From NCBI RefSeq assembly GCF_002954445.1, contig NZ_MQWA01000001.1:3459453-3503686 (forward strand): a DNA stretch of 44,234 nucleotides. Reading direction: 5' to 3'. The notes under the pieces are model-generated. The model was not told the origin of the DNA. It was given only the letters and a program-made list of their open reading frames with translations, and ran no database searches. Shown piece after piece: positions 65 through 39,300 of the stretch. How positions within the stretch are numbered: position 1 is the first letter of the stretch; every line of letters starts with the position of its first letter. Position numbers and translations under genes: made by a program. The stretch is from Rubritalea profundi (GTDB lineage Bacteria > Verrucomicrobiota > Verrucomicrobiia > Verrucomicrobiales > Akkermansiaceae).

Positions 65-934
65 ATGAAGAATGACCTACCTTATCACCACGACTGGAAA
101 CCACAGTTCGAAACCTCTCTCGGATTGCAGGTGAAGTGGTTTGGCCGTTGGGGCGAGGACCCGGAGTGGTCGATCGAGCCATCGCGACTCGCGGCGGATC
201 TCATCTGCTTTTTCTATCTTGAGGAGGGGTCGTGCACGGCTGTTGTTAATGGCGTCAATGTGCTGATGCAGCCGGGTGAGTTGGTCGTACTGCGTAGTGG
301 AGATGTGTTCTCGTTCGGCCAAGATCAGTTAAGACCTCAGACCAGCCTGTCGGCCTGCCTTTCACTTAACCAAGACGACACCTCGAACGTTTTACTTCGT
401 CATGCTTACCGACGCCATTATCTGCTGCAGGACAGGAAAACTTACGAGCAACAGTTTACCGCTGTCCTTGAGGCGCTGGAAACAGAAAACCGCTGGCGTA
501 ATCTACATGTCTCGGCAGCCATCTTTAGCTGGCTGGCAGGAGTGCAGGAAGCTCTTCGCCCTGACCCAGGTGCAGCACAGGCGACTTCAAAGACCGTTCA
601 TCATGTGCTCACCGCACAAGAATGGATTCAGCAGCGCCTAGGTGAAGATGTTTCCATCGCCAACTGGGCTGCTGTTTGTGGGCTCAACTCGGATTACTTC
701 AGTCGCTTGTTCAAATCGCACACTGGGATGACTCCGAAAACTTGGTTGATCGAGGCTCGGCTCCAGCGTGCCTCCAGATTACTGGCCTCTCAGGACGAGT
801 CCGTTGAGGAAGTCGCCTACCACTGTGGTTTCCACTGTCCGTTCCATTTCTCCCGCAGTTTCAAGCGCCGTTTTGGAATTTCTCCTAACCGTTACCGAGG
901 AGTTCGTCAGGTCCATGGGGTTGTGCATTCGTAA
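65..934 (+). CDS. AraC-family transcriptional regulator
   Basis: A 289-aa protein with the usual two-part AraC architecture. The N-terminal half (about residues 20-110) looks like a cupin-type ligand-binding fold, with a stretch reading VLMQPGELVVLRSGD. The C-terminal 100 residues hold two helix-turn-helix units; the second ends in the family signature around VAYHCGFHCPFHFSRSFKRR and GISPNRYR. Full length for the family. It is the first gene of a same-strand run of sugar-processing genes, so it is probably their local activator, responding to a sugar. That role is inferred from position only. The ATG at 65 lacks a strong Shine-Dalgarno, as do most genes here. Confidence 0.9.
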   Translation: MKNDLPYHHDWKPQFETSLGLQVKWFGRWGEDPEWSIEPSRLAADLICFFYLEEGSCTAVVNGVNVLMQPGELVVLRSGDVFSFGQDQLRPQTSLSACLSLNQDDTSNVLLRHAYRRHYLLQDRKTYEQQFTAVLEALETENRWRNLHVSAAIFSWLAGVQEALRPDPGAAQATSKTVHHVLTAQEWIQQRLGEDVSIANWAAVCGLNSDYFSRLFKSHTGMTPKTWLIEARLQRASRLLASQDESVEEVAYHCGFHCPFHFSRSFKRRFGISPNRYRGVRQVHGVVHS

Positions 935-1064
935 AGGACACACTTGGATGTTCAGGTTTGCCCTCTTCCAATTAAAAAGTCGGATTTGTGCATAAATTGA
1001 GCGCATTCACTGCATTCAAATTATGCAGGTTATCTTGTAGCATGTCATATTCTTACTGAATAAC

Positions 1065-2378
1065 ATGAACCGTTCAGGATTTAATGGAACAAGCTTAAAA
1101 AATATCATGAATAACGAACAACTGAACAACGAGAATAGCATTGAAAATCTAGAAGAAGGCGGCCTGTCACGTCGCGGGTTCTTGCACGGACTTGGCGGCG
1201 CGGGAGCATTTCTCGGCATGGCCGGAATGGCGGGCAACGTTTCAGCAGCACCCAAGGATGCCGATGGGAAAATCATCCCAGGATTTGAAAAAATCAAGGA
1301 TGATCCTAATGCTGCAAGGGGGTGGAGATCGGTTTCCGATCGTAAGATCAAGGTCGGCATCGCTGGATACGGCCTCTGTAAATTCGGTGGGGCATTCTTT
1401 TATCAAAACCACCCGAATGTCGAAGTGGTGGCAGCCACCGATCTCGATCCGGGTCGCTGTGCTGCCTTGGCCAGAGCTGTGGGAGCCAAGAAGACTTATC
1501 CGTCTTGCGAAGAAATGATCAAGGACAAGAGCATCGAAGCCATCTACATCGCTACCGATGCGCCAAGCCACGCTCGTCTGGCAATCATGGCATTGAATCA
1601 CGGCAAGCATGTGGTCTCTGCAGTACCAGCCGTGTTTGGCTTTGAAGCCGAGGGGCAGGCGGAAGAATTGTTCAATGCCGTCAAGAAGAGCGGCATGAAG
1701 TACATGATGAATGAGACCTCAATGTTCCATACCGACCTCTACTCCAAACGCATGCAATGCCAGGCAGGGGCGCTTGGTAAAATCATTTACTCAGAGGGCG
1801 AGTACTATCATGACTTCGGTCCCAAGGGACTTCCCGGTTACAACCCCCAAAACGGCAAGATTGATCTCAACGGCTGGCGCAAGGCTCTGCCGCCAATGTG
1901 GTATCCCACCCACGCGACGGCCTACTACGTTGGTATCACAGGTGGACGGTTCACCGAAGTATCCGGACTGGGCACACCCGGCATCTACGCCGAATACAAC
2001 AAGGGTGACAACCAGCACAAGAACCCGTTTGGCACGGAAGTCGCTATGTTCAAGACCAGCGAAGGCGGTATCTCACGAATGGCGGGAAGCTGGGACATGA
2101 AAAATGCCCACGGCGAGAAAGGTCGCGTCTACGGACAAAAACCTCATAATAATAAAATCAAAGGAACTCGCCCGCCGCTACCACCAAGCGTCAAGGGCGG
2201 CGGTCATGGCGGCTCGCACGGCCAACTGACCAACAACTTCATCGAATCCATCCTGCTGGATAAGAAACCCATCGTCGACATCGGCGATGCCCTGAACATG
2301 ACCCTGGGTGGTGTGATCGCCCACAAATCCGCCATGAAAGGCGGCGAGTGGATGAAGATTCCTCAGTACGATTTGTAA
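1065..2378 (+). CDS. Tat-exported Gfo/Idh/MocA-family oxidoreductase
   Basis: A 437-aa protein. A twin-arginine signal (LSRRGFLHGLGGAGAFLGMA) lies at about residues 34-53, so it should be folded in the cytoplasm with its cofactor and exported by Tat. A Rossmann nucleotide-binding stretch follows (KVGIAGYGLCKFGGAF). The family is NAD(P)-dependent sugar and polyol dehydrogenases and related enzymes. The usual EKP motif, whose Lys is catalytic in many members, is replaced by AVPA in GKHVVSAVPAVFG, so the chemistry may differ. A second in-frame ATG at 1107 would still leave an intact Tat signal, so the start is uncertain. The GH43-like gene begins three bases after its stop. Confidence 0.88.
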   Translation: MNRSGFNGTSLKNIMNNEQLNNENSIENLEEGGLSRRGFLHGLGGAGAFLGMAGMAGNVSAAPKDADGKIIPGFEKIKDDPNAARGWRSVSDRKIKVGIAGYGLCKFGGAFFYQNHPNVEVVAATDLDPGRCAALARAVGAKKTYPSCEEMIKDKSIEAIYIATDAPSHARLAIMALNHGKHVVSAVPAVFGFEAEGQAEELFNAVKKSGMKYMMNETSMFHTDLYSKRMQCQAGALGKIIYSEGEYYHDFGPKGLPGYNPQNGKIDLNGWRKALPPMWYPTHATAYYVGITGGRFTEVSGLGTPGIYAEYNKGDNQHKNPFGTEVAMFKTSEGGISRMAGSWDMKNAHGEKGRVYGQKPHNNKIKGTRPPLPPSVKGGGHGGSHGQLTNNFIESILLDKKPIVDIGDALNMTLGGVIAHKSAMKGGEWMKIPQYDL

Positions 2379-2381
2379 GTC

Positions 2382-3431
2382 ATGTTTCAACAAATTTGGA
2401 GAGTTGTGGTTTCTGCGATCTGCTTAACGCAGCTAGCTTGTTTGGCTTCGGCAGATCCGGAAGCGAACGATACCACTATCGTCAATGGCACCGACTGGAA
2501 GGATACCGAAGGCAATACCATCGTCGCACACGAAGGTGAGCTATCACGCTTCAACGGAGTGTTCTACTGGTACGGCAGCAGCTATGAAAATAATCCCAAG
2601 GGCAGGTTCCGCATGCCGGCCGGACCTGTCTGGAACGGCGTGCAAGTTTACAGCTCCACTGACCTCAAGAACTGGACCTACAAAGGCGTGTGCCTACCGC
2701 GCCCTGAGAAAGGCTTCGGCAAGGTCGGAGCCACCGGGCGGGCACATGTGATGTACAATGAAAAAACCAAGAAGTATGTGATGTGGTACCGTTGGTTTGT
2801 GGCGATGCCGGCGTCGTTTCTCTGTGTCGCAACAGCCGATCATCCAGAGGGACCATTTACTCCACACGGGCCGCAACAAATGGGCACCTCAACTGGGTTT
2901 GGATCCGACATGAATATCTTCCAAGATGACGATGGCAAGGCCTACGTGATCTACTGTGATCACAATGCACCAGATGCCAAGCCAGCGAACGGTTGGCGTT
3001 ATGCCATCCGCATCGATAGCCTCAGTGACGATTACTTGACCAGTAACAGAGATGGCGTGGTGATCTTTGACAAAGGCTGCGAAGCTCCCGCCATGGTGAA
3101 ACACAAAGGCAAGTACATCGCAGTCGCATCCGGCGTGCATGGCTGGGCGGGTTCAAATACCAAGTGTGCCGTGGCCGATTCGCCGCTAGGAGAATACAAA
3201 AAGCAGGCAGATATCAGCGAGCAGAAGAGTTGGGGATCTCAGGTCACCGACCTGATTTACCTCAAGGAGTCCGACACCGTGATGGCGCTCTGCGACCAGT
3301 GGTGGAATTCGGATAAAAACGACATCAATAAATCGCGCTATCTGTTTCTTCCGCTGTTTCTTAATGAGAAAACCGGCAAGGTGAAAATGGAATACCGCGA
3401 GAAATGGCAGCCATTAAAGCCTTCCAAATAG
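2382..3431 (+). CDS. Secreted GH43-like beta-propeller glycoside hydrolase
   Basis: A 349-aa protein with a Sec signal peptide (about residues 1-24, cleavage near LASA). The motif order resembles GH43 enzymes of the exo-beta-1,3-galactanase-like group: DTEGNTIVAHEGEL near residue 41, GVFYWYGSS near 59, GSDMNIFQDDDGKAYVIY near 174, and CEAPAMVKHKGKY near 233, followed by SGVHGW. Asp176 fits the pKa-modulating Asp and Glu234 the proton donor. In this group the usual N-terminal catalytic Asp is absent, and here the position reads HEGEL. It probably releases galactose or another sugar from a polymer outside the cytoplasm. It is tightly coupled to the upstream oxidoreductase (3-base gap). The exact substrate cannot be read from sequence. 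Confidence 0.75.
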   Translation: MFQQIWRVVVSAICLTQLACLASADPEANDTTIVNGTDWKDTEGNTIVAHEGELSRFNGVFYWYGSSYENNPKGRFRMPAGPVWNGVQVYSSTDLKNWTYKGVCLPRPEKGFGKVGATGRAHVMYNEKTKKYVMWYRWFVAMPASFLCVATADHPEGPFTPHGPQQMGTSTGFGSDMNIFQDDDGKAYVIYCDHNAPDAKPANGWRYAIRIDSLSDDYLTSNRDGVVIFDKGCEAPAMVKHKGKYIAVASGVHGWAGSNTKCAVADSPLGEYKKQADISEQKSWGSQVTDLIYLKESDTVMALCDQWWNSDKNDINKSRYLFLPLFLNEKTGKVKMEYREKWQPLKPSK

Positions 3432-3447
3432 AACTGAGAAAGCGTAG

Positions 3448-4704
3448 ATGTCGTCCATGATCAAACCATGCGCTAGGGTTCTTTCCTCTCTGCTATTATC
3501 CTCAGCGTTACTCTCTGCCTCAGAAGAGGTCAGTTTCGGCATGCCCGAGATGAAGCTGGTCAAGGAGTTTAAAAAAGGCGAGCGAAAGGTCCTGCGCTAC
3601 GAACACGACAGTATCGCTGAGTGGGGGTACGCAAAGCCACAGCAGGATTACTTCTACGTTCTTCCCCTTACAGATAATCCCGAGAAAAAGCCATTGCATG
3701 TGGTCCTTCACTCGGCAGGTTGTAGTGGCGACATCGTATTAGATCTAGCCTTTAAGAAACCAGATTGGTTTCACTACGTGGGACTTGAGGACCAAGTGGT
3801 CATCTACCTCGATTGCGCAAAGAATCGGAACGATTGGTGGTGGGGCGCACACGCGATCAAGCGGGAGTCTGAGAAATACGCGGATGCGTATTGCCCGACG
3901 GAAAAACGGATTCTTACGACGATCGAATGGGCGGTCAAGACCTATCAAGTCGACCGCAACCGCGTCTACCTCAGCGGCATCTCGATGGGCGGGAGCGGCA
4001 GCCTCGGGATCGGTATGAGGCGTGGTGACATCTTTGCGGCAGTGAATCTGATGGTGCCAGCCGGGATCGAGCACATCCAACACCGCGTGTTTGGCAAGGA
4101 CGTTCCTGATCCGCCAATTCTCGTCAATTTCTCCGCACAAAACGACAACTGGAGTAAAGGGCAGGAGAAGTTGATTGCCTACTTCGAGGAAAAGAAATTC
4201 CCACTCGTGTTTGCATGGGGGCAGCATGGTCACAATAGCTCAACGGCCGGATACCACCCTGCGGCGCAAGCTTTCCCATGGCGATCGATTCGCAAAAACG
4301 AGGCCTATCCGGTTTTCTCAAATGCCAGCACGGACAACAACTACCCAGGTTTTAAAAACGCGACCGGCGGTGACAAGTCCGGCCAGATCGGCGCCCTGTT
4401 CCGATGGAAAACCATTGCGGATACTCCAAGTAACTTCCAGATCGATCTCCGACTCGTCAACAAAACCGAGCTCAAGCCCGCACTGAAGGGGAAGATCGAT
4501 CTCCCTAACACCGCGAACACGGCCGTGAGTTTTCGACGCCTGCAGCGATTTAAAACCAAGGCCGGACAAACCTACCAATGGTCCCTCAGTCGTGAGGGCA
4601 AAACCCTGCAGACCGGATCGGCAAAGGCGGACGAATCCGGCCTCCTAACAATCAGGAAATTGCACATCAGCATTCAATCCGCACGGTTGAAGGTGAAGCA
4701 CTAA
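3448..4704 (+). CDS. Secreted alpha/beta-hydrolase (esterase / PHB-depolymerase-like)
   Basis: A 418-aa protein with a signal peptide (about residues 1-25). The nucleophile elbow GISMGGSGS places the catalytic Ser at residue 179. A later QNDNW is a candidate for the acid and GQHGHNSS for the His. The region LHVVLHSAGCSGD could form the oxyanion-hole strand. About 110 residues after the hydrolase core look like a beta-rich C-terminal domain. The most likely role is a carbohydrate esterase (acetyl, feruloyl or similar) acting beside the GH43-like enzyme 16 bases upstream. This is inferred from fold and neighbours. Confidence 0.72.
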   Translation: MSSMIKPCARVLSSLLLSSALLSASEEVSFGMPEMKLVKEFKKGERKVLRYEHDSIAEWGYAKPQQDYFYVLPLTDNPEKKPLHVVLHSAGCSGDIVLDLAFKKPDWFHYVGLEDQVVIYLDCAKNRNDWWWGAHAIKRESEKYADAYCPTEKRILTTIEWAVKTYQVDRNRVYLSGISMGGSGSLGIGMRRGDIFAAVNLMVPAGIEHIQHRVFGKDVPDPPILVNFSAQNDNWSKGQEKLIAYFEEKKFPLVFAWGQHGHNSSTAGYHPAAQAFPWRSIRKNEAYPVFSNASTDNNYPGFKNATGGDKSGQIGALFRWKTIADTPSNFQIDLRLVNKTELKPALKGKIDLPNTANTAVSFRRLQRFKTKAGQTYQWSLSREGKTLQTGSAKADESGLLTIRKLHISIQSARLKVKH

Positions 4705-4739
4705 AGTAAATAGATAACCTCACCCCGAGCATCAGGCCC

Positions 4740-5468
4740 ATGAATAAACTAACAGCATTCCTCCTGGCATTCACTGCACTTGCGTTACCCGCGCATGTTT
4801 GCGCTGCGGAGCCGAGTAAAAACGATGCCCCCCATCCGCAAAAAGCCTTTGTCAATCCGAAGGACGATCCGGATCTGCTCAATGTCTTGATCATAGGAGA
4901 TTCGATCTCTATCAGATACACCACAGCCGTGCGCAAGTTGTTGCATGGTAAGGCTGATGTGTTTCGCCCCGGAGCCAATTGCATGTACTCGGGCCATAGG
5001 GCACAAAGCATGAAGGCATGGGTGGCTAACAGAAAGTGGGATGTCATCCACTTCAACTTTGGCATCTGGGACACCCACTACCTGCATAATGGCAAACTGA
5101 TCATGCCTAACAATCTGAGTAACTATAAAGAAGCAGACTTGAAACGCAGATACAGCCATCAGCAATACATCAAGAATCTCGAGAAAGTGCTCAAAGTCGT
5201 CAAGCGCACCAAGGCCAAACTCATCTGGGCCAGCACAACACCATTTATCTCATACGGGTAGGATACGAAGGTGTTTCTTGCCGAGAACAACAAGCTTGCC
5301 GCAAAGTTGATGCAAGACAATGACATCGTCATCAATGACCTGTATGCGCTTGCTCTGCCCAATCTAAAGCAATGGCAATTGAAGGATGGCTGCCATTTCA
5401 ACCCTGAAGGATACACCGGTCTAGCCACCCAAGTGGTGCCAAAGATATTAGCAGAAATCAAACCGTAG
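4740..5468 (+). pseudogene. SGNH/GDSL hydrolase interrupted by an in-frame TAG
   Basis: One reading frame runs from the ATG at 4740 to the TAG-terminated end at 5468, but an amber codon at 5259-5261 splits it. The first part (173 aa, signal peptide ending near VCAAEP) carries block I of the SGNH family (LIIGDSISIRY) and FNFGIWDTHY. The second part carries the catalytic Asp-x-x-His block (DGCHFNPEGYTGL). Both halves are needed for the Ser-His-Asp triad, so termination at the amber codon should give an inactive product. There is no frameshift: the 5' and 3' parts are in the same frame, and one base change would restore a protein of about 242 aa. Readthrough or a sequencing error are alternatives. 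The second part could be called separately from a GTG at 5271, but alone it lacks the nucleophile. Confidence 0.8.
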
Positions 5469-5662
5469 TCACGCATCGTCCCCCTTTTTACGCAGTGTGC
5501 GAAGAGGTGTGGGGGATTGTGACGAAGGCTTGTTGAAGCGAAGAATGAGCGGGGGAAATAGGTACCTTTTAAAGTTTAAATTTTATTCCGAGCAGCTGAG
5601 GAAACTTTATGTTTGCTGATTCTGAGTGAAATATCGATCTGCAAGAGTACGTTTTAAAAGAG

Positions 5663-6355
5663 ATGATGAAAATAAGAATGACATTTTTTGCCACACTGGC
5701 TGCGACTTTAGTGGGGGGACCGCTAGCGACTGCCGAACCATTATTTAACGGTAAAGACCTTGCGGGCTGGAAGACCGATGTGCCTGATGCCGATAAAACC
5801 CCTAACATTCAGCCCAGCTTTATGGTGCGGGATGGAAAGTTGGTGAGCCTTGGCACCCCTCGTGGCCATTTGATCTCTGACAAGTCTTACGAGAATTACC
5901 GCCTTACCGTGGAGTATCGTTTCACTGGAAAGCCCGGTAATTGTGGTGTGTTAGTTCATTCCTCCAAGCCACGAGTTCTCTATGGAATGTTTCCAAAATC
6001 GATCGAAGTTCAGATGCAGTCGGGACACGCTGGAGACTTCTGGTGCATTGGGGAAAATATTGAAGTTCCCAACATGGATCAGCGCCGTCCTAAGAAAGAG
6101 GGACAAAAATATGGAGGCAGTAAAGGGGATGCACGTCGCATTCTGAACCTGACGGATGATTCCGAGAATAAGCTGGGTGAGTGGAATACAATGGTCATCG
6201 AGTGTCAAGCTGACGAGGTGAAAGTCTGGGTCAACGATACCCTTGTAAACCATGGGACTAAATCAACAGCCAGCAAAGGGCAAATCGCTCTTCAAGCTGA
6301 AGGTGCCGAAGTCGAATTCAAAAAATTCGACCTTGAACCGCTAACAAAGAAGTAG
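5663..6355 (+). CDS. DUF1080 protein (3-keto-disaccharide hydrolase-like)
   Basis: A 230-aa protein with a signal peptide (about residues 1-24, ATAEP at the junction). The start of the mature protein has the family hallmark LFNGKDLAGWK. Later landmarks are YRFTGKPGNCGVLVHSS, WNTMVIECQADEVKVWVNDTLVNHG and GQIALQAEGAEVEFKKFDL, all typical of this concanavalin-like beta-sandwich family. Named members hydrolyse 3-keto-glucosides, which would pair logically with the exported oxidoreductase at 1065. That pathway link is an inference. The start ATGATG at 5663 follows an AAAGAG that may act as ribosome binding site. Confidence 0.85.
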   Translation: MMKIRMTFFATLAATLVGGPLATAEPLFNGKDLAGWKTDVPDADKTPNIQPSFMVRDGKLVSLGTPRGHLISDKSYENYRLTVEYRFTGKPGNCGVLVHSSKPRVLYGMFPKSIEVQMQSGHAGDFWCIGENIEVPNMDQRRPKKEGQKYGGSKGDARRILNLTDDSENKLGEWNTMVIECQADEVKVWVNDTLVNHGTKSTASKGQIALQAEGAEVEFKKFDLEPLTKK

Positions 6356-12772: not shown

Positions 12773-13363
12773 ATGGGACAAGAGCTCAAAGGTACTGGAA
12801 TATCACAACTTACTAACTCTGAGTTAAATAAGGTGGATGCTGCTGCGCTGGACCCACAGGTTCGGAAATTTGTAGATTTTTATCTGCAGACGAGAGTTCC
12901 ACTACGCGCTTACATCTATGGATTTTTAAAGAATAGTGAGGCTATAGAAGACTGTATCCAAGAGACCTGTATGTTGGTGTGGAATAAACAACAAGAAGGT
13001 TGGACGCTGGATGAGTACCAAAAGTTTTCCTACACGACCGCTCGCTTTAAAGCCCTAAGCTGGCTCAAGAAGCATCAGCCGAAAAAGCACGTTCAGCTCT
13101 CGCCAGCGATGATGGAAAAGTTGGCAGATCGAACACTTCAGGTGGAACCAGATCATCGAATCTCCATTCTCAATGATTGTCTAGACAGGCTTAGTCCTGA
13201 GCAACGCAATATCCTAGATGCGCGCTACGAAGCAGCTGATAGCCAAGCTCTGCAGTTGCTAGCCAATAGCCTGAGCCGCAAAGTAGATAGCTTGTATAAA
13301 CAACTCGAACGCCTTCGCACCATCCTTCGAGATTGTGTGCGGAAAGAACTCCCGTACCAATAA
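12773..13363 (+). CDS. ECF-type RNA polymerase sigma factor (Rhodopirellula/Verrucomicrobium type)
   Basis: A 196-aa sigma-70 family protein. Region 2 covers about residues 35-95 (LRAYIYGFLKNSEAIEDCIQ, then ETCMLVWN). Region 4 lies at about 142-193 (LDRLSPEQRNILDARY and the helix SLSRKVDSLYKQLERLR). It should redirect RNA polymerase to a small regulon. The anti-sigma-like gene starts three bases after its stop, a classic sigma/anti-sigma pairing. The PVC cytochrome gene starting 1.25 kb after the sigma stop is a candidate target. Confidence 0.88.
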   Translation: MGQELKGTGISQLTNSELNKVDAAALDPQVRKFVDFYLQTRVPLRAYIYGFLKNSEAIEDCIQETCMLVWNKQQEGWTLDEYQKFSYTTARFKALSWLKKHQPKKHVQLSPAMMEKLADRTLQVEPDHRISILNDCLDRLSPEQRNILDARYEAADSQALQLLANSLSRKVDSLYKQLERLRTILRDCVRKELPYQ

Positions 13364-13366
13364 ATC

Positions 13367-14416
13367 ATGAGTGATCGAATTTCTAACAATGTGAATTACC
13401 AACCGAGTTCCGAACTGCGGGATTTGGTTGATAAAATGATTGATGACAGATTACTTGCTGACGAGAGAGATAGTCTAGAGGCGTTGTTGGAATCGAATTC
13501 TGAAGCGCTGAACTATTGTGCCGAGCGCGTGCATTTTCATGCCGAATTAGAAGAATCGATGGCGCCAGTGCGAGTGGAGTTGACCCAGAAGCGGCATGTT
13601 GTTTTCGAAAAGAAAAGAGGCTTTGCGTCAGTGAGTCGGGCGATGAGCAACGTGGTTAAGATTGAGAATTCCAAACATGGAAAGGCTGTGGAGCTACCGC
13701 CCAAGCCCACAACACAGGCAAATTTCCTAAGCTATAGTTTGGTGGCGCTCGGTCTGATGGCGGTGGCGGCTTTGATTTTCCAGCTTACCCGGTCCCCTGA
13801 GCCCGAGCTGGCACCGAGATTAGCGCCAAAATTAGCATTCAATAATGCCTCATTCGAGGATCTAGATATCAATGAAAAGAGTCCTCCCTACATTTTTACC
13901 ATCCTTGAGTGGCAGGATTACTTTCAAACAAGCAAAGTAAAAGTTTGTGATGTCGAACGCGCGACCGATGGCAAGCGATCGGCTAAGGAGGGTCGCTACG
14001 CAGTGATCATAGAAGAGGGAGGGTTCCTGACTCAGAGACTGACTTACGATGACGGAACTTCATTGAAGGCTAGAAAGGGGCTGAAGTTTCGCATTTCTGG
14101 TTGGGCGATGTTGGAATCTACTGGCAAGCCGTGTAGCTTGAGCATTGCGACCCGAGTCGTTGCTAGCGCCTACCCGTCGATGCGACAAGTGCAACCCAGT
14201 GTGGAAAAAATCACAGTAGAGAGCACAGAGTGGCAAAAATTCTCGGTGGACTTGTCCTTGCCCAAGGACTCATTGGTTATGAGGCCAAATGTTACTGGAG
14301 CTGGGCTCGAGAATGATTTGATGGACATCACCGGGCTCAATCTAGCAATTTCGATCGACAATAAATCTTCAGTGAAATTTTTCCTCGACGCGATGAGCGT
14401 GGAGGAAATTAAGTGA
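13367..14416 (+). CDS. Membrane-anchored anti-sigma-like protein with extracytoplasmic beta domain
   Basis: A 349-aa protein. Residues 1-60 (LRDLVDKMIDDRLLADERDS, LEALLESNSEALNYCAERVH) look like the short cytosolic anti-sigma segment of FecR-like proteins in this phylum. One membrane helix spans residues 121-140. Residues 158-349 (starting FNNASFEDLDI) resemble a galactose-binding or carbohydrate-binding beta-sandwich. Expected role: holds the upstream sigma factor at the membrane and releases it on an outside signal. Sensing of a carbohydrate is a guess from the domain type. No CxxC zinc anti-sigma motif is seen. Confidence 0.65.
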   Translation: MSDRISNNVNYQPSSELRDLVDKMIDDRLLADERDSLEALLESNSEALNYCAERVHFHAELEESMAPVRVELTQKRHVVFEKKRGFASVSRAMSNVVKIENSKHGKAVELPPKPTTQANFLSYSLVALGLMAVAALIFQLTRSPEPELAPRLAPKLAFNNASFEDLDINEKSPPYIFTILEWQDYFQTSKVKVCDVERATDGKRSAKEGRYAVIIEEGGFLTQRLTYDDGTSLKARKGLKFRISGWAMLESTGKPCSLSIATRVVASAYPSMRQVQPSVEKITVESTEWQKFSVDLSLPKDSLVMRPNVTGAGLENDLMDITGLNLAISIDNKSSVKFFLDAMSVEEIK

Positions 14417-14614
14417 TTCAAGTGACCGACGCTTAGATTTTGAGAGGTGTCGTATTCCGCGGTTTGAAAGGGAGGAAAAGAAAACTAAAAAAGAATGTCA
14501 GAAATCGAGTGATTTGGAAATAGAGTTGTGAATGCATGCATTATGCTGGCTCTGAGCAAGTATTGTGGTGCAAAGTACGGGCGGCATTATTACGCCTAGA
14601 ACACTTATAACTCT

Positions 14615-17600
14615 ATGATGAAGAAAAATTGGATACCTAAACTACTGAGGCGGTCCAGCCTCTGTCTGGCTGTGACTTTGGCGGTGAGCCCTCAGATGAT
14701 TGAGGCTAAGACGAAGAAAATTCTTTTCCTGGCTGGCAAGAAGAGCCATGCGAACGGTGAACACGAATTTGAAGCTGGCTGTAAATTGCTCGCTGAAGCC
14801 CTGAATGCGAGTGGACTGGATGTCGAAGCGAAGGTGTACCACCCTGGTTGGCCGAAGGATGAATCTATCTTTAAAGATGTCGACGCATGCATTGTGTACG
14901 CTGATGCTGGCGGACGATTTGGAGAAAAGTATGCGGTGTTAGATAAGCACGTGAAGAATGGCATGGGCATCATGTTCATGCATTATGGGGTGCATCCAAC
15001 AAAGGACGCGGGTCAGAAATATTACCTCCCATGGCTTGGCGGCTACATGGAGGATGACTATTCCGTGAATCCACATTGGATTGCGGATTTGAAGGCGAAT
15101 AAAAAATTGCCAATTGCCAATGGTTTGCCTGAAAAGTTTCCCGCCTATGATGAATTTTACTACAACATGCGTTTTGCTGATGACTGTGATTGTTGCGGCG
15201 GAGCTGTGACTGGTGTTCCATCACCAGATCGCATGGTTCGCTACATCAATATGTGGAATGAGCATGGTGAGAAGGGTTTCGGCAAGCCTCAGAAGTTGAT
15301 GTGGTATAAAGATACTCCGACGACTGATGGTGGCCGTGGCATAGGATTTGTTGGTGGTCACTACCACCGCAACTGGGCTATCGATGATTTCCGCAAGATG
15401 GTGCTCAATGCCATTGTTTGGACTGCGCGCGGTGATGTTCCTAAAGCTGGAGTTCCCTCTAAACCAATCACTAAAGAGCAACTGAGCGCAGGGCTCAAGA
15501 AGCCGATAGAGCTTCCAACAGCAGCGCTCTACAAGCAGAAGCCAATGAAGCTTCCTGACTTGAAGAAAAGGAAAGCGGCAGCGGCTAAAAAAAAAGCTCA
15601 AAAGGCTAAGTTGGTAAAAACTGCTAAGGTAGAATGGTCACCGAAAGAAGCTGCCCAGAAAGTGGCACTAGAGCATTTTTCTACGCCTGAAGATAAGGAG
15701 TTAGAAGTAACAGTGTGGGCTAAGTCTCCGATGCTATTTAACCCAACAAACATGGATATCGACCACAAGGGACGAGTCTGGGTGGCTGAAGGGGTGAACT
15801 ACCGCCGTAAGGCTGGGCGTCGCCCGGAGGGAGATAGGATTGTTGTGCTTGAAGATACCAATGGTGATGGAACTGCTGATAGTTCCCACACCTTCGTGCA
15901 GGATAAAGACCTAGAGTCTCCATTAGGTGTGGCTGTGTTCGATAATAAAATAATCGTTTCTCAGCCACCTAACATGTTGGTTTATACTGATGTGAATAGG
16001 GATTTAAAATTTGATCCAGCAGTGGACAAAAAAGAAGTACTACTCACTGGCTTCAATGCCCGTCAGCACGACCACTCGCTGCACTCGCTGACAGCTGGTC
16101 CGGATGGTAAATGGTATTTTAACACGGGTAACTGTGGTGCTATTTTTAAAGATAATTCCGGCAAGACCTTCAACATGAACGGTGTTTACCGCGGTGGGGG
16201 GGGGACATTCTATATGGATAATAATAAGCTGGGTGGCAAAGCGTCTGATGATGGCTTTGTCTGGACCTCAGGCTTCACGGTACGAATGAATCCAGACGGA
16301 ACCGATGCTGAAATAGTTGGCCACGGTTACCGTAATTCTTATGAGCAGTCAGTGAACTCTATGGGAGATATTTTCCAGAATGATAATGATGACTTTGGCG
16401 GTTGCAGGAACTCCTATGTTTTGGAGTACGGTAGTGCCGGTTTCTTCACTAAAAATGGTCAGAGAACTTGGCGCTCTGTGCAGCGTCCGGGGCAGCCAGT
16501 GGCTCGTGCTCACTGGCGTCAAGACGATCCAGGTACATTTGATGTAGGTGATGTCTATGGCCACGGCTCTCCAACAGGCAACGTTTTCTATGAAAATGGT
16601 GCACTTGGGAAGAACTGGGAAGGTTCCTACCTCGCTTGTGAGGCGGCGCGTAACACAATCTTCGGCTATAGACCAAAAGCAAAGGGTGCAAGCTTCGAGA
16701 TGAAGAGCGTCAATTTCCTCACCTCAAACGTTCAAGGTGAATATATCGGTGGTGATCAAACCAAGCGCGTTTCAAGCAATGACCAGATCGAGTACCAAGG
16801 GGTGCTTTTCCGTCCTTCCGATGTTTCAGTCGGTCCAGACGGAGCCGTGTATGTGACGGACTGGTTCGATGGACGAGTCGGTGGTCATAGTACTATGGAT
16901 GATTCCTGTTCTGGAGCGATTTACCGTATCGCTCCAAAAGGATTTAAACCGAACATTCCAAGCATTGACCTTAAGACTACTGCTGGTCAAATCACTGCAT
17001 TGAGTTCACCCGCGGTCAACGTGCGTCACCTCGGTTTCAATGGACTTCGCGATAATAAAGAGAAGTCGCTCGCTGCGGTTGTCGCACTACTCGACAATCC
17101 TAACAGGTACATCGCATCGCGTGCGATTTGGTTGCTACCTCACCTCGGAGCCAAAGGGTTAGCGAAGTGTGAGAGTTTACTTAAGAGCACGAATTCAGAT
17201 GAACGAGTAGTCGCCTATCGAGCGCTTCGCCGCACTGGTGCAAACATGCTGGCCTACGCTAAATCACTAGCAGGCGATCCTAGTCCAGCAGTGCGCCGTG
17301 ATGTGGCTCTCTCCTTGAGACACTACAGTGCTGATGAAACATTGCCGATCTTCGTGACTCTTGCAAAAGCTTACGATGGTAAGGACAAGAACTACCTCGA
17401 GTCTATCGGGCTTGGTGCGGAGAACAAAGAAGAAGCAATCTGGACTGGTCTTAAAAACGAGCTAGCTGTAGGACCTGCTGCTAGTTGGTCGGATTCATTT
17501 GCTCGTCTCACATGGCGCTTGTGGCCTGTGGCTGCTGTTTCAGATCTGAAGCAACGCGCTCAGAGCAAGGAGTTAACTCAGGAGCAGAGAGAGTTCGCAG

Positions 17601-18262
17601 TGGAGTCACTCTCCTTTATCAATGACAAGTCAGCAGCATTAGCTGTGTTGGATTTGGCTAATGATAAATCTTTGGTGAAAGCTGAGTCGGTTTATTGGTT
17701 GTTTGAGCGAGGAACAGGAACTTGGGCTTCAATGGGAATTAAAGATGAACTTAAGAAGCGTGGTATCTATGATCCATCAAAGATTGTAGTCAATTCGATG
17801 ACCGTACCAGAACCACCCAAGTCGACTAAATTGCCGTCAGTTGCTGAGGTTATGAAGCTCAAAGGCGATGCAAAGAAAGGGGCAGTCACTATCCAGCGTT
17901 GTGTCATGTGCCATAACATCAATGGAGTAGGACCTAACTACGGTCCAGCATTGAAAGGATGGGGATCCACTCAGTCTCGAGAAGCTATCGTGAAGAGCAT
18001 TCTAGAACCATCTGCTGATATTGCTCACGGATTTAAAGGTAAAGAAGTAGTGCTAACGAACGGTAAAGTAGTCCATGGGCTTGTTGTAGCTGGTGACCCT
18101 TTAGTTGTGACTTCTACTGGTGGTGTGGTGCAGTTGGTACCAAAGGACCGTGTGAAATCGGCCAAGTGGATGTCTCGCTCACTGATGCTTTCAGCTGAGC
18201 AGTTAGGGCTTAGCGGTCAAGACGTGGCTGACATTGCTAGCTACATGCAGCAGTGGAAGTAA
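14615..18262 (+). CDS. Secreted ThuA / PVC-type dehydrogenase / HEAT / cytochrome c fusion
   Basis: A 1215-aa exported protein with a signal peptide at residues 1-31. Residues 32-280 match a ThuA-like domain (ILFLAGKKSHANGEHEFEAG; HYGVHP; GGHYHRNW). A Lys/Ala-rich linker lies at about 320-345. Residues 350-800 form the PVC-type membrane-bound dehydrogenase propeller (WVAEGVNYRRK, DGTADSSHTF, DVSVGPDGAVYVTDWFDG). HEAT-like repeats fill about 820-1060. The tail is the Planctomycetes-type heme-binding domain with one c-heme site, C1096-V-M-C-H1100, and a candidate distal Met near the end. It probably oxidises a sugar or polyol in the periplasm and passes electrons to a cytochrome chain. An intrinsic terminator follows. 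Confidence 0.85.
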   Translation: MMKKNWIPKLLRRSSLCLAVTLAVSPQMIEAKTKKILFLAGKKSHANGEHEFEAGCKLLAEALNASGLDVEAKVYHPGWPKDESIFKDVDACIVYADAGGRFGEKYAVLDKHVKNGMGIMFMHYGVHPTKDAGQKYYLPWLGGYMEDDYSVNPHWIADLKANKKLPIANGLPEKFPAYDEFYYNMRFADDCDCCGGAVTGVPSPDRMVRYINMWNEHGEKGFGKPQKLMWYKDTPTTDGGRGIGFVGGHYHRNWAIDDFRKMVLNAIVWTARGDVPKAGVPSKPITKEQLSAGLKKPIELPTAALYKQKPMKLPDLKKRKAAAAKKKAQKAKLVKTAKVEWSPKEAAQKVALEHFSTPEDKELEVTVWAKSPMLFNPTNMDIDHKGRVWVAEGVNYRRKAGRRPEGDRIVVLEDTNGDGTADSSHTFVQDKDLESPLGVAVFDNKIIVSQPPNMLVYTDVNRDLKFDPAVDKKEVLLTGFNARQHDHSLHSLTAGPDGKWYFNTGNCGAIFKDNSGKTFNMNGVYRGGGGTFYMDNNKLGGKASDDGFVWTSGFTVRMNPDGTDAEIVGHGYRNSYEQSVNSMGDIFQNDNDDFGGCRNSYVLEYGSAGFFTKNGQRTWRSVQRPGQPVARAHWRQDDPGTFDVGDVYGHGSPTGNVFYENGALGKNWEGSYLACEAARNTIFGYRPKAKGASFEMKSVNFLTSNVQGEYIGGDQTKRVSSNDQIEYQGVLFRPSDVSVGPDGAVYVTDWFDGRVGGHSTMDDSCSGAIYRIAPKGFKPNIPSIDLKTTAGQITALSSPAVNVRHLGFNGLRDNKEKSLAAVVALLDNPNRYIASRAIWLLPHLGAKGLAKCESLLKSTNSDERVVAYRALRRTGANMLAYAKSLAGDPSPAVRRDVALSLRHYSADETLPIFVTLAKAYDGKDKNYLESIGLGAENKEEAIWTGLKNELAVGPAASWSDSFARLTWRLWPVAAVSDLKQRAQSKELTQEQREFAVESLSFINDKSAALAVLDLANDKSLVKAESVYWLFERGTGTWASMGIKDELKKRGIYDPSKIVVNSMTVPEPPKSTKLPSVAEVMKLKGDAKKGAVTIQRCVMCHNINGVGPNYGPALKGWGSTQSREAIVKSILEPSADIAHGFKGKEVVLTNGKVVHGLVVAGDPLVVTSTGGVVQLVPKDRVKSAKWMSRSLMLSAEQLGLSGQDVADIASYMQQWK

Positions 18263-19221: not shown

Positions 19222-21837
19222 CTACTGGTGGAGGATTTCCTTACCTGGTTGATCGCCAGCGATGACGAGTGGAATAAGTGCCAAGCCAGCTGATAGAGCG
19301 GTCATGAGAACGGGGACAAGCCGTTCTTGAGTTCCGCGTGCGATCATCTCTCGGGTGAAACCTTCACCCTCGTGTTTCATCAGGTGGAGGTAGTGAGAGA
19401 TCAACATAATGCTATTGCGGGCAGCGATACCGGCTACGGCGATGAAGCCAACGAGTGTCGCGATGCTGATGTTGTTGACCGTCATCCAAGTGAATACGAG
19501 CCCACCAACCAATGCTAATGGGATGTCACAGAGTACCTGGATGGCGAATGTAATGGTTCCAAAATAAGTGTAGAGTAGGAGTGCTATAATTAACAAAACG
19601 ACACACGTGGCCTTGAAAATAGTCGAAGACGCTTCCTTTTGCGCCTGGTATTCACCTTCGATACTCATGTCGTATTCTTTATATCTACTTTGTGACATGA
19701 CCTCATCATTGATCCGATCTTCTAGGGTGTTGATCATGGATTCGAGGTCGCTGCCGGTGGGGTTGATGCTGACCACAAATCGACGTCGAGTATTCTCGCG
19801 CTTGATCACATTTGGTCCCTTGGCATTACGGATTTCAGCAATCGCTTTCAGTGGAACTCTTTGTCCATCATCATTGGTGAGCATGAGTTCGTGAAGGTTT
19901 TGCGGTGATTCACGCCAGCTTTCAGGTAAGCGCATGACCAAGTCGATACTACGTTCGCCCTCAAATAATTCAGCGACAGTGGAGCCTCCAAGTAGAGTGG
20001 AGAGTTGGTCGTTGACGGCAGCTGGGCGGAAGTTGTACGCCAGGGCACGATCACGATCGACCTCTATCCGCAATTGGGGGATTGGTGCTTGTTGTTCGAT
20101 ACTGGCGGTTTCTAGCCCTGGGATCTCTTTACAAATCTTTTGGATCTCTGTGCCCATCCCTCGAAGAGTTGCGAGGTCAGGACCAAATAATTTGACAGCA
20201 ACCTTGGCTGGCACACCACTGAGCATGTGACCAATCCTGTCTTTAAGAGGACCTGAAATAACACTAAAAGTTCCAGGAAGATTTTTGCTGCTGAGCCTTT
20301 CTCGGATTTCGTCAGTTATCTCACCACGTGGGGTGTCATTCTCTTCTAGCTCGATGTCAAACTCCACTGTCGATACTGGCACTACGTGATCACCACGCTC
20401 GGCGCGGCCGACTCGATGGCCGACTGACTTTACGTCTTCCATATCTAACAATAGCTTGTCCACCACAGCAGAGATTTGGCTAGTTTGGCCAAGTGAGGTG
20501 CCTGGGCTGGCAGTCATAGCTACCACGATGGTTTCTTCTTTGAACTCAGGAAGGAACTGTTTTCCTAACTTAGGATAAAGCAATGCTGCTGCCGTGAGCG
20601 CCATGAGAGCGAATGCGAGTACGACAGCTGGAGCTCTGAGTGAGTATGTTAGGAATGTCTTTTCAAAAATCCATTTCATACCTCTCACAATAAATCCTTC
20701 CTTATGTTCTTTGCCTGGCTTAGGGCGCAAGAACAGCGAACAAAGTACTGGGATGACTGTGAGAGATACTATGAAGGATGCTCCCATACTGACCATTGTC
20801 GCTAAAGCGATCGGTGTAAAAAGTCGTCCTTCTACACCACTTAAAGAAAGCAGTGGGATGAATACTAGGATGATAAATAAGGTAGCATAGAGAATGGAGT
20901 TTCGAACTTCTCCAGACGCTTTGGCGATGACCTCTAACCTTGGCAAGGGAGTGGCGAGAGATGCATTTTCACGCAATCTTCGAAACACATTTTCCACATC
21001 AACAATGGCATCATCGACAACGATACCGATGGCGACAGCGATACCACCCAAGGTCATAGAGTTCACACTCAACTCAGCAAAAGAAAAGACGATAGCTGTG
21101 ATCGCAAAGGATAGCGGGATAGCAGTGAGGGTGATGAAGGTGGTTCGAAGGTTGAACAAGAAGATGAACAATATAATCACAACCATGATAGAGCCATCAC
21201 GGATAGCTTCGAGCAGGTTATCAATCGCTAGATCGATGAAGCTCTTCTGGCGGAAAAGTGGCTCGAGTAGGATTCCTTCAGGTGCTTGATCTTGTAGCTC
21301 TGCTAGGATTTCTTCCACTTGATCAGTGAGCTTGATCGTATCGTATCCTGGAGATTTTGTGATGCTCATCACCACGCCTTTTCTGCCATTCACTGCAGCA
21401 TCACCACGCATGGGTTCAATGCCCCATTTGATCTCAGCGACGTCAGCGATGGTTACTGGACGATCATCTAGCATTTTGACGACTGTCTTACCAAGCTCCT
21501 TGAGATCGGTCGTCATGGCCAAGTTACGGATCATGATTTCCTGTGACTCAGATGAGATGAAGCCGCCAGTGGAGGTGCTCGCTGCTTGCTTGCTCGCTTG
21601 GTGGAGTTCGTCGAAGGTGACTCCGTGTGAGAGTAACTTGTTAGGGTCTGGGAGGATTTGAATCTGTTTGATTCCACCACCCATCGAGAGCACTTCAGCG
21701 ATACCGGGGAGACTCTGAAGTTTCCTGCGCACTGTCCAGTCCGCATAGGTGCGGATGTCGCTAGGCTCCATGCTGCCGTCTTCGGAAGAGATTCCTACTA
21801 GCATGATTTCCCCCATCAATGAGGCCACTGGTGTCAT
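19222..21837 (-). CDS. Heavy-metal RND efflux pump (CusA/CzcA family), main part of a frameshifted gene
   Basis: An 871-aa frame carrying most of a heavy-metal RND pump. It begins in the porter domain ([15 protein letters not shown]) and includes the central membrane helices. The proton-relay motif reads [20 protein letters not shown]. The second porter repeat and most of the last helix group follow. The first 126 residues of the protein are in another frame (21834-22214) and the last 43 in a third. Rejoined, the pump would be 1041 aa, the normal family length, so two single-base losses are enough to explain the pieces. The Asp-rich relay motif suggests a metal-cation rather than drug exporter; which metal is unclear. 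It sits between the adaptor gene and the His-rich lipoprotein gene. Confidence 0.85.
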
Positions 21838-22214
21838 GTAGGGACTACTTCGTCTGGCAGCTCGACCGACTGCAGGCGTTCTTGCACGAACTGTCGGGCT
21901 TTATAAATATCTGTGTCCCAGTCAAACTCGACGTAGACAAGTGAAAGCGAAATGTCAGAAATGGATCGGACACGGGTCACACCTGTGACTCCCACTAGAG
22001 AACGCTCTAACGGCATGCTGATGCGCTGCTCCACCTCTTCTGGAGCACGCCCAGCAGCCTCAGTCATGATGGTGACTGTTGGCTTTGTTAGATCTGGTAA
22101 TACCTCAACGGGTAGCGACATGGTCTTCTGGAATCCCAGAGCCAATACCAAAAAGGCAATGGCTAGGACGATGACGCGATGCCCGAGAGAGAAGCGAATA
22201 AGTTTATTGAGCAT
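21834..22214 (-). CDS. N-terminal part of the frameshifted RND efflux pump
   Basis: A 126-aa frame with the first transmembrane helix ([17 protein letters not shown]) and the start of the first porter subdomain ([37 protein letters not shown]). This is typical of CusA/CzcA pumps. It stops at TGA in ACATGACA, where the main frame's ATG overlaps the stop. Inserting one base (ACATG to ACCATG) would give [14 protein letters not shown] without a break. Coupled reinitiation at the ATGA overlap could in principle make two chains, but splitting a porter subdomain would be unusual. Two bases separate it from the adaptor gene upstream. Confidence 0.85.
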
Positions 22215-36301: not shown

Positions 36302-39300
36302 CTACTTTTTATGAGGGTGCTGTATAAGAAGTTCTTCAGGAGCGTAGAAGCCTTCTTGATCTGAAGTGTAAGCTCTCACTTTTTTGACTAGAGCGGGTGA
36401 TACCGAGGAGGCCTTGTTGCCGAAGGAATTGCGTACAAAGGTGAGGACGTCGGCGATCTCTTGATCCGTGAGAGCCTTGAAACCACTCATAGGTACGAGA
36501 CCTGGATATTGTTTGTCCTTGATTGTGATAGGTCCATGTAAACCGTGGATTACGAGCTTTATGAGGCGTTCTTGATCTTCTAAAACCCATTTTGTTCTAG
36601 TGAGAGGAGGGAACATTGCTGCTGGTAGGCCTTCACCGTCTTCTTGGTGGCAAGTAGCACAGTGGGCTTCTCTGTGGTAGACCTCGTGACCTTTGGCAAA
36701 TCGAGCAATGTCCTTTCCTTTCAAATGTTTAGGGACTTTAATTTTTTCCTTTTTAGATGTAATGGTTTGATTGCTCGCTAATGTACGAAGTGTGGCAATG
36801 ACCGGACTTAATTGTGCATCTTCGCAGATGTCATCATTAGGTAGTTGCCCGAGGATTACGTTTAGATCTACACGATTTGAAAGTCGAGACGCAACGACTA
36901 AGGCTTCTAGACGAACACGTCCGTGTGGGTCTTTGGCAGCTTTGTTAAGTATTTGCTGAAGGTTGTTAAATTCAAGTGGAGTTTGAGCGAGAGCTCGGAC
37001 TGCGACACAGCGAAGATTGAAGTTGTTAGACTCCATGGCTAGATTGTGGATTTTTAGGTTCGGATGGTCTGAACTACATGTGACGAGCAAAGCTTCTAAG
37101 AGATAGTTGTCATATTTACTGTCATTGGTTTTGAATTTTTTAAGCCAGCTCATAAGGGCTGAATTTACTTTTGTGGAATCGAACTTACGTAATTCAGTAC
37201 GCGTACGGTAACGAGTACGGTATTCTGGGAGTTTGAGGTTCTCGAGGAGCTTGGCTATAGTTGCGCCGTCAATTTTAGAAGGTTTAACTAATGGTAGAGA
37301 CTTGTGGGTGACTCGGTAGATCCTACCATGTTTGTGGTCTCTTAGTGGATCTCTCGCGCTGTGTTGCATGTGACCTATTAGGACATTATGCCAATCCACA
37401 ATGAACAGAGATCCGTCTGGAGCAAACTCCAGGTCAACTGGTCGATAGTTGGTGTCATCCGAAGACACAAGGTCCTGACGGTGCTTACTAGTAAAACCAA
37501 CAGAGCCGTCTTCTAGGGTGTGCTGTTTGGTGCCACGAAAACCAATCACATTGTTGAGGAGGTAGTCACCCTGCATATAGCTAGGGAAGTGTCTACTTGA
37601 GACAAACTCTAGGCCCGAGGTTGGTCTAACTCGTTGGTTTTTTTCTACTAAGTTCGCTGGAAGGGGAGCAAAGTAGCCGTATGGCACCTTGATAGAAGCA
37701 GGGGTAAGCCAACGGGCATTTGGGTCTGAAGTGTCAAGGAAGAGCCCTTGTCCCCAAACGTTAAAGGTTATTCCCCAAGGATTTGGTATCGAAACCCTAG
37801 CTAATCTGTCGAGCTTCTGTGTGCTCGGGTTGAATCTCCAAAATCCTCCGTTTGAGCTACGCTGCACACCGTAGGCGGTTTCAACATTACTATGCAGAAA
37901 TGTGCCTTCACTCATGAGAATGTTACCAAAGGGGTCTTGACTGAACGAGCTAATGGCGTGGTGAGTATCGTGATCGTCAAAGCCACTAAGTATCACAGTT
38001 CTCTTGTCGGCTTTGTCGTCGTTGTCTGTGTCCTCTAAAAGTAGAAGGTTAGAGCCCTGGGAGACATAAACACCTTTGTGAGTGATTTCAAATCCTGTCG
38101 GAAGTTGAAGTTGGTCGGCAAAGACGATCTCTTTATCCGCTTTTCCATCGTTGTTAGTGTCTTCGTATATAAGGATTTTGTCATTAGGTTTTTCATCTGT
38201 GACCTTATAGTGTGGGTAACTTGGCATGGTTGAAACCCAGAGGCGACCTTTGCTGTCAAAACTCATTTGGCATGGGTTTGCTAGATTTGGGAATTCTTTT
38301 TCAGAAGCAAATAGTTCAATTTTGAAGCCCTCTGGAAGACTAAATTTTTTCAGAGCATCTTCCCCATAAAGGTAGGTTTTACTGCCATTTTTCCTGCTTG
38401 TCTTGAAGTTGGTTTTGACCTCAGCTAATGGACTGGTCTGTGCATCAGCAGTCTTGAGGTCGAACCTTTTTTTCTGGGCTAAGGCAGTGATAGCTTGATC
38501 TCGGTTATCGAGCATTTCTTTAAGCTTCTGTAGCTCAAACGGGTAGTTTTTTGGACCAAATGGTCTATGACGTCTACCGAATACGTGCACGCCATTGGGG
38601 ATTTTATAGTAGTTGTTCCAGAGCCAGTTTTTGTCGAGTACCGCAGTGTGGATTTTTTTAGTAGTTGTACTGTCGAGCTTGATATTTTGCCCGGTGAGGC
38701 GAGTCGATAATTCTTGTGAGAGTTTCTTGTAGCCATCTTTATTCAGCTGAAATCCATTGAGTGTGAGGGTTTCAGGTGCCTCATGAAACCACTTTTTTGA
38801 GGGTGAAAAGATGTCAATAAAAGCAACTTCTTCTATCTCTGAAACTTCCTTAAGAGCCTTAGTGTAGAGCTCTAAATATTTATTGTAGCTAGCTGCATCT
38901 ATATCGGCTGATGGTTGGGTGCTCGGATCGAAGGCAATGGGGGAGACTAGGACGATCTCTGGTGCTGACTTACCATTGTAGCGTTGGCTCTTCGTGTGTT
39001 TGAGAAAGGCGGACACTTCTCCTTTAAAGTTGTGAATTCCAGCTTCTTCTGAAAAAGCTTCGTTGTACCCAAAGAATGCAATGAGCGTGTCGGTTTTGAG
39101 TTCAGTAAGCCAAGAGTCCGGGCTTTTAAAAGTTCCTTTACCAGTGTGGCCTGACCCCCAGCGGTCTTTTTGCTCGGAGAGTGGTGGGTGAAATGACTGA
39201 GCCCCTTCAAATGCGAATGGATTGTCTCTTGCTGAATGTGGGCGGAATCCTGCAGTGTTTCCGTCGTCGCATAAATTTCTAAAGCGAATGTTCGCAGCTG

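Follow-up and report, generated by a model that had tools for sequence, protein, structure and literature searches.

A putative sigma/anti-sigma module and a conserved promoter-like element beside an exported ThuA/cytochrome enzyme gene in Rubritalea profundi

In Clostridium thermocellum, biomass is sensed by SigI-RsgI pairs, in which a sigma factor is encoded beside a membrane anti-sigma factor that displays a carbohydrate-binding or other sensing module on the outside. Genes for extracellular carbohydrate enzymes are reported to have sigma-specific promoters, and promoters are also reported upstream of the sigI genes themselves (PMC4711584). Class I anti-sigma factors carry a four-helix N-terminal anti-sigma domain (PMC7406223). 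Here, we analyze a gene pair from Rubritalea profundi that appears to work like SigI-RsgI, the likeness being one of working. It is located in a window (the whole stretch of DNA analyzed, 44,234 nucleotides; G000:C1:3459453-3503686) of the 4.17-Mb genome G000. As an earlier note on this DNA had placed them, three genes follow one another on the forward strand and encode an extracytoplasmic function (ECF)-like sigma factor (196 amino acids, 12773-13363), an anti-sigma-like membrane protein (349 amino acids, 13367-14416) and a giant exported protein (1215 amino acids, 14615-18262). A two-box promoter-like element, ATGTCAGA-N13-GGAAAT (TGTCAGR-N13-GGAAAT), was found at 14495-14521 (+), ending 93 bases before the start codon of the giant gene.

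As in SigI-RsgI, the sigma gene stands beside a gene for a predicted membrane anti-sigma whose outer part resembles a carbohydrate-binding module (CBM), and a candidate sigma-specific promoter precedes a gene for an extracellular enzyme. In contrast to SigI-RsgI, the pair belongs to another phylum, its sigma best matches ECF-type models, and its targets are mostly neighboring secreted proteins, including a cytochrome-bearing dehydrogenase-like one. Furthermore, no promoter element was seen before the sigma gene of the pair, unlike the promoters reported upstream of sigI (PMC4711584). A literature search covering titles and the beginnings of abstracts gave no description of the pair or of the element, and an ECF group number may already exist.

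Based on the results below, we consider it probable that the sigma factor stays bound at the membrane until contact with a ligand releases it and that it is then directed to the element, from which the giant enzyme gene would be transcribed. Gene pairing, predicted membrane topology, a conserved element linked with the pair and the rarity of the exact element in G000 all point in this direction. The connection from sigma to enzyme is well supported by comparison across genomes, and the glycan step is plausible.

Co-occurrence of the two-box element with the pair

The anti-sigma was present in 13 of 98 genomes, G000 included. A seven-row anti-sigma profile (E 1e-20) detected 27 places in 22 of the 386 genomes of the order, and all of these, the window among them, were taken as the pair-locus set; weak matches in G064, G065 and G071 (E 4e-4 to 9e-4) were left out. 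Comparing positions by hand, we found a sigma match before the anti-sigma match in 27 of 27 loci. In seven of them, a giant-gene homologue is the direct neighbor of the pair, co-directional in the window and L021 and divergent in L022, L026, L156, L157 and L160. This linkage spans two genera, two separate sigma subgroups and both orientations, and the adjacency exceeds chance.

The element was read as TGTCAG and GGAAAT-like boxes, 14 bases apart, in the sequences upstream of the enzyme genes of G000, G010, G006, G002 and G047. In a scan of 56 loci, it preceded the enzyme in these five genomes and also, at some sites with more mismatches, other large pair-adjacent genes in G058, G055, G033 and G042. 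Circularity is least in two lines of evidence, a comparison of the regions upstream of homologues and a four-genome footprint. In the comparison, 7 of the 7 pair-linked loci have an element or variant upstream of the enzyme, as do 2 of 7 further homologues from clade genomes but none of 30 from pair-less genomes. The strict pattern alone gave 3, 2 and 0 in the same sets, and the TGTCAGR core alone 6, 2 and 1, the single pair-less case being a bare core at -344. The last set derives from 40 enzyme loci beyond those already collected, 33 of them from pair-less genomes, of which L059, L067 and L088 gave no enzyme open reading frame (ORF). Three of the seven linked sites are strict and four were recognized by hand, with GGAACA as the second box (L026, L156) or GACAT one base farther (L157, L160); because the linked loci fall in two lineages, these counts are not independent events. 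In four genomes of the same genus, the two boxes are conserved (0.88 and 0.92 identical) between a variable spacer (0.37) and variable flanks (0.33 and 0.25).

The exact pattern TGTCAG-N14-RGARAT occurs twice in the 4.17 Mb of G000, once before 14615 and once within an ORF. Both exact matches of G010 precede genes of the enzyme family and lie on two contigs; at the second (L091, 10265-10291, -), on a contig separate from the sigma pair, the element is 13 bases ahead of the called start. In G002, the element precedes the enzyme on a different contig from the pair. At L094 (4032-4057, -) of G047, on a contig differing from those of both sigma pairs of this genome, it stands 35 bases ahead of the gene for a protein with a PEP-CTERM-like end.

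Later loci suggested a broader second box (GACAC, GACAT, AACAC, GAACA). By eye, 20 sites in 17 of the 27 pair loci were accepted as the element, as were three located elsewhere (L055, L091, L094). It should be noted that TGTCAG is invariant by construction, because all 23 accepted sites were chosen to contain it. Two candidates were not accepted, namely the L025 site, where the spacing is one base shorter, and the L164 site.

In 24 genomes of our choice, the exact pattern gave 45 matches, 23 in 10 pair-bearing and 22 in 14 pair-less genomes. Among the former, ten are intergenic and 13-123 bases ahead of a gene (two each in G010 and G058, and one each in G000, G006, G002, G055, G042 and G047), one is intergenic without a called gene after it (G058), and 12 are within ORFs. 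Among the latter, a single match is intergenic and 13-123 bases ahead of a gene (G051); of the rest, 19 are within ORFs and the two in G049 are intergenic with no gene called after them. Seven of the 23 matches fall in the pair loci, which make up 0.39% of the bases. A pattern tuned on the pair loci, and hence partly circular, gave 24 matches in 22 genomes, eight of them in pair loci (0.4% of bases) and 16 outside, two of the latter in G000.

The spacing was examined with the pattern TGTCAG-N15-GAVAY, which gave 15 matches in 28 clade stretches (483 kb) and none in 33 control stretches (525 kb); every other spacing from 6 to 25 gave 0-5. One locus, L055, entered this control twice, as a clade stretch and among the other regions. 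With GAVA at N15, seven matches were found in the first 11 loci and eight (at least one within an ORF) in the 16 later loci, against means of 1.0 and 1.3, and the control had 2 against 1.8.

Sigma factor, anti-sigma-like protein and exported enzyme

The sigma factor matches Sigma70_r2 (PF04542) just above the cut-off (24.2 bits, cut-off 24), and its region 4 match (PF04545) is weak (14 bits against 24.1). The top NCBIfam match is TIGR02989 (Sig-70_gvs1), a sigma family of Rhodopirellula and Verrucomicrobium; it spans nearly the whole model, yet at 98 bits it falls short of the curated cut-off (124.55). When 35 sigmas were placed in a tree, 26 pair sigmas formed one group (support 100/99) apart from nine other sigmas, L171 of the 27 pair rows having been removed by a length filter. 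The sigma used as a query against the contigs of the genomes found no relative. TIGR02989 matched 17 stretches in G000, some of them parts of a single gene. Three further sigma genes of this genome (L032, L033, L035) contain a stop codon or are split across frames, which gives the impression that such sigma genes are undergoing decay there.

The anti-sigma-like gene starts three bases past the sigma stop, and in several relatives the stop and start overlap as ATGA. The model of the 349-residue protein, built from seven sequences, has a mean predicted local distance difference test score (pLDDT) of 73.4. Three helices (residues 15-65) come first; they are followed by a beta stretch of low confidence, then by a helix that covers the hydrophobic segment, and last by a beta-sandwich. 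The most hydrophobic stretch is residues 120-138 (13724-13780, +). The three N-terminal helices ahead of a membrane segment recall class I anti-sigma factors (PMC7406223); unlike in those, residues 66-110, between helices and membrane, are modeled with low confidence as a beta stretch and no fourth helix is resolved. A search for HxxxCxxC did not find it in the 349-residue protein. This motif marks the zinc-binding anti-sigma (ZAS) subgroup.

The outer domain (residues about 152-349; 13820-14413, +) is modeled with ten-residue pLDDT blocks of 76-94 from residue 191 onward, with one exception of 65. Against Pfam CBM_4_9, it scored below the cut-off (E 0.014; 16.2 bits, cut-off 25.9). In the fold comparison, residues 151-349 matched the CBM22 module 4xuo (Z 12.2, 3.4 A over 144 residues) and the CBM4-2 module 4bj0 (Z 11.9), and CBM16 modules match too; the CBM-type matches reach Z 11-12 over about 135-146 aligned residues, and PDB matches overall Z 11-13. 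In its predicted structure, the domain thus has a CBM4/16/22-type jelly-roll fold. The fold is shared by Fischerella-type cyclases (Z 13.2) and meprin, so the term "carbohydrate-binding-like", used in the earlier note, holds for the fold and not yet for the function. In the anti-sigmas of G055, G047 C6, G033 and G042, only residues about 12-150 align, and the outer part therefore differs. This suggests, from alignments, a constant inhibitor part joined to a swappable sensor.

A gap of 198 bases separates the anti-sigma-like gene from the 3.6-kb giant gene. Its product had been described as an exported dehydrogenase/cytochrome with ThuA, and domain models bear this out. ThuA (PF06283; residues 47-270, 48.5 bits, cut-off 33.4), the TIGR02604 propeller (363-776, 413 bits, cut-off 122.2) and the TIGR02603 c-type heme domain (1084-1213, 116 bits, cut-off 68.15) all exceed their cut-offs, and the single CxxCH is CVMCH at residue 1096. 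HEAT repeats are also present, and the N-terminus is signal-peptide-like by eye. By this enzyme, the nearest named relatives include Rubritalea marina and an uncultured Rubritalea, which makes a marine verrucomicrobium of that genus the most likely source. The propeller model (443 residues, pLDDT 83) has as its closest PDB structure the pyrroloquinoline quinone (PQQ)-dependent sugar dehydrogenase 3a9g (Z 30.5). Its predicted fold resembles those of PQQ-dependent sugar dehydrogenases (3a9g, 1cq1) and fungal AA12 enzymes (Z 30.5 to 23), unrelated propellers being lower in the ranking (Z about 23). Unlike these dehydrogenases, the protein combines its propeller with ThuA, HEAT repeats and a c-type heme, and no PqqE match exceeded its cut-off in G000.

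To our knowledge, the roles of cytochromes of the Planctomycetes-Verrucomicrobia-Chlamydiae (PVC) type are poorly known. They are very numerous (42 TIGR02604 stretches in G000, pieces of a single gene counted apart), and a predicted promoter together with a sugar-binding-like sensor offers a handle on them. An inducer of the enzyme encoded at 14615, once found, may reveal its substrate class, and, through the element, some members of the regulon of a verrucomicrobial sigma can be recognized in the sequence.

Proposed circuit, its targets and competing explanations

We suggest the following circuit. The sigma factor would be held at the membrane by the anti-sigma encoded directly after it, the two proteins presumably binding each other. 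The outer jelly-roll domain would meet a ligand, most likely a carbohydrate, after which sigma may be freed, probably via regulated proteolysis as in other membrane anti-sigmas. Together with core RNA polymerase, the freed sigma would start transcription at 14495-14521, its boxes being taken as -35 (TGTCAGR) and -10 (GGAAAT), and the exported ThuA/PQQ-dehydrogenase-like/cytochrome protein would be made. In relatives, this module appears to govern the large secreted protein that happens to adjoin it.

The targets and neighbors vary. Besides the seven enzyme-family loci, they include a GH97 (glycoside hydrolase family 97) protein (L166), an alpha-galactosidase-like protein as a neighbor only (L025), and a GH110-like enzyme with a PEP-CTERM protein and a LacZ-like one (L023). 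Other proteins with PEP-CTERM-like ends are found in L094, L163 and L165, and autotransporter-repeat (beta-repeat) proteins in L162 and L167, weakly in L168 and as a neighbor only in L159. Proteins of L029 and L030 have fn3-like stretches, and L027 has a giant protein. Most N-termini are signal-peptide-like by eye; called starts are doubtful in L162, L167 and L159. Since the element precedes proteins of changing kind, the module looks like a plug-in regulator of secreted proteins and not of sugar oxidation only. A galactoside theme is only a lead, given by the alpha-galactosidase-like proteins (L025 and L166, both under the model cut-off) and the GH110-like and LacZ-like proteins of L023. Thus, of the circuit in the earlier note, in which an outside glycan releases sigma and the periplasmic oxidation enzyme is made, the link from sigma to enzyme is upheld by a conserved, pair-tracking element before 14615, whereas a dedication to oxidation enzymes is not.

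Tentatively, with nearly even chances, we regard the module as a cassette of a verrucomicrobial family. It would combine one sigma group and promoter type with a swappable anti-sigma sensor beside varied giant secreted proteins, its regulon comprising one or a few genes without self-regulation, so that sigma would have nearly one target. Beside glycosidase-like and PEP-CTERM proteins, the module may tie carbohydrate sensing to surface-protein production.

A number of results weigh against the proposed circuit. The enzyme is far more widespread than the pair (a match at E 1e-120 in 75 of 98 genomes), and most homologues have no pair alongside: none of 40 further loci, known pair-linked loci excluded, and one of 80 named loci. 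Ten of the 27 pair loci lack an accepted element, the spacing to GACA in L157 and L160 is one base longer than in the window, and in L156 and L157 the site is at or inside the 5' end of the called ORF, which places the actual start farther inside. In G002, both pair and enzyme are near contig ends, so that their placement on different contigs does not establish a distance between them. Over whole genomes, clade members show no excess of the exact pattern, which differs in its placing alone. The window by itself is not significant, with one match at up to one mismatch against 1.19 expected. Enrichment in pair loci is partly circular, because these upstream sequences are where the element was first recognized. 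In the 16 later loci, the original GARA box gives no peak at the fixed spacing (two matches); the peak rests on GACA (six matches against a mean of 0.42 at other spacings), a variant adopted after seeing those loci, which are only a partial replication. The outer-domain fold is not sugar-specific. Finally, ECF genes are often self-regulating, and no element precedes the sigma gene. The shared motif that the earlier note had proposed to look for before both 12773 and 14615 and elsewhere was found before 14615 and in 17 of the 27 pair loci. As for the sigma gene, the 450 bases ahead of the matched sigma domain contained the bare core TGTCAG in one of 27 pair loci (L029), with a poor second box, and autoregulation by the element was therefore rejected for the pair group.

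Among the alternatives, the one that survives best is that the pair senses the envelope state or a secreted protein rather than a free glycan, its regulon being general surface-protein production. We regard this as a serious possibility, although not the favored one. That beta-repeat proteins and four proteins with PEP-CTERM-like ends have accepted sites upstream would suit it, as would the differing outer parts in G055, G047 C6, G033 and G042 and the use of the fold in non-sugar proteins. The carbohydrate-enzyme-like neighbors (GH97, GH110-like, LacZ-like and a 3-keto-disaccharide hydrolase) argue for a glycan instead, and many of the closest solved folds of the outer domain are CBMs.

It is unlikely that another regulator or sigma uses the element and that the pair is merely a frequent neighbor controlling something else. 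Such a view would accommodate the missing element before the sigma gene, the ten pair loci without it and the further TIGR02989-type sigma genes of G000. However, the element follows the presence of the pair even at a distance (the second G010 site and the other contig of G002) and is absent before the 30 homologues from pair-less genomes. Moreover, five other sigma stretches of G000 (L031-L035) have no match at the fixed spacing, and the set of 12 to which they belong holds only the L055 and L091 sites. An accidental landing of the regulatory pair beside an unrelated enzyme is very improbable, since the scarcity of the pair at the 40 further and 80 named enzyme loci is set against a linkage in seven loci that recurs across genera, sigma subgroups and orientations, each time with the element or a variant.

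Neighboring genes in the window

Another protein with DUF7133 and cytochrome c domains is encoded at 36302-39493 (-), and its N-terminal side has a weak match to GDSL lipase; in the motif scan of loci, the element was not seen before this gene. Upstream of the sigma pair, 65-6352 (+) contains consecutive genes for an AraC-type regulator, a Gfo/Idh/MocA oxidoreductase, GH43, a protein with a weak esterase match and a 3-keto-disaccharide hydrolase, and this row is probably a sugar-use locus. At 19222-22214 (-), a transporter resembling by eye a heavy-metal-efflux pump of the resistance-nodulation-division (RND) type is encoded as two ORFs (871 and 126 amino acids) with a 4-base overlap, which gives the appearance of a broken frame.

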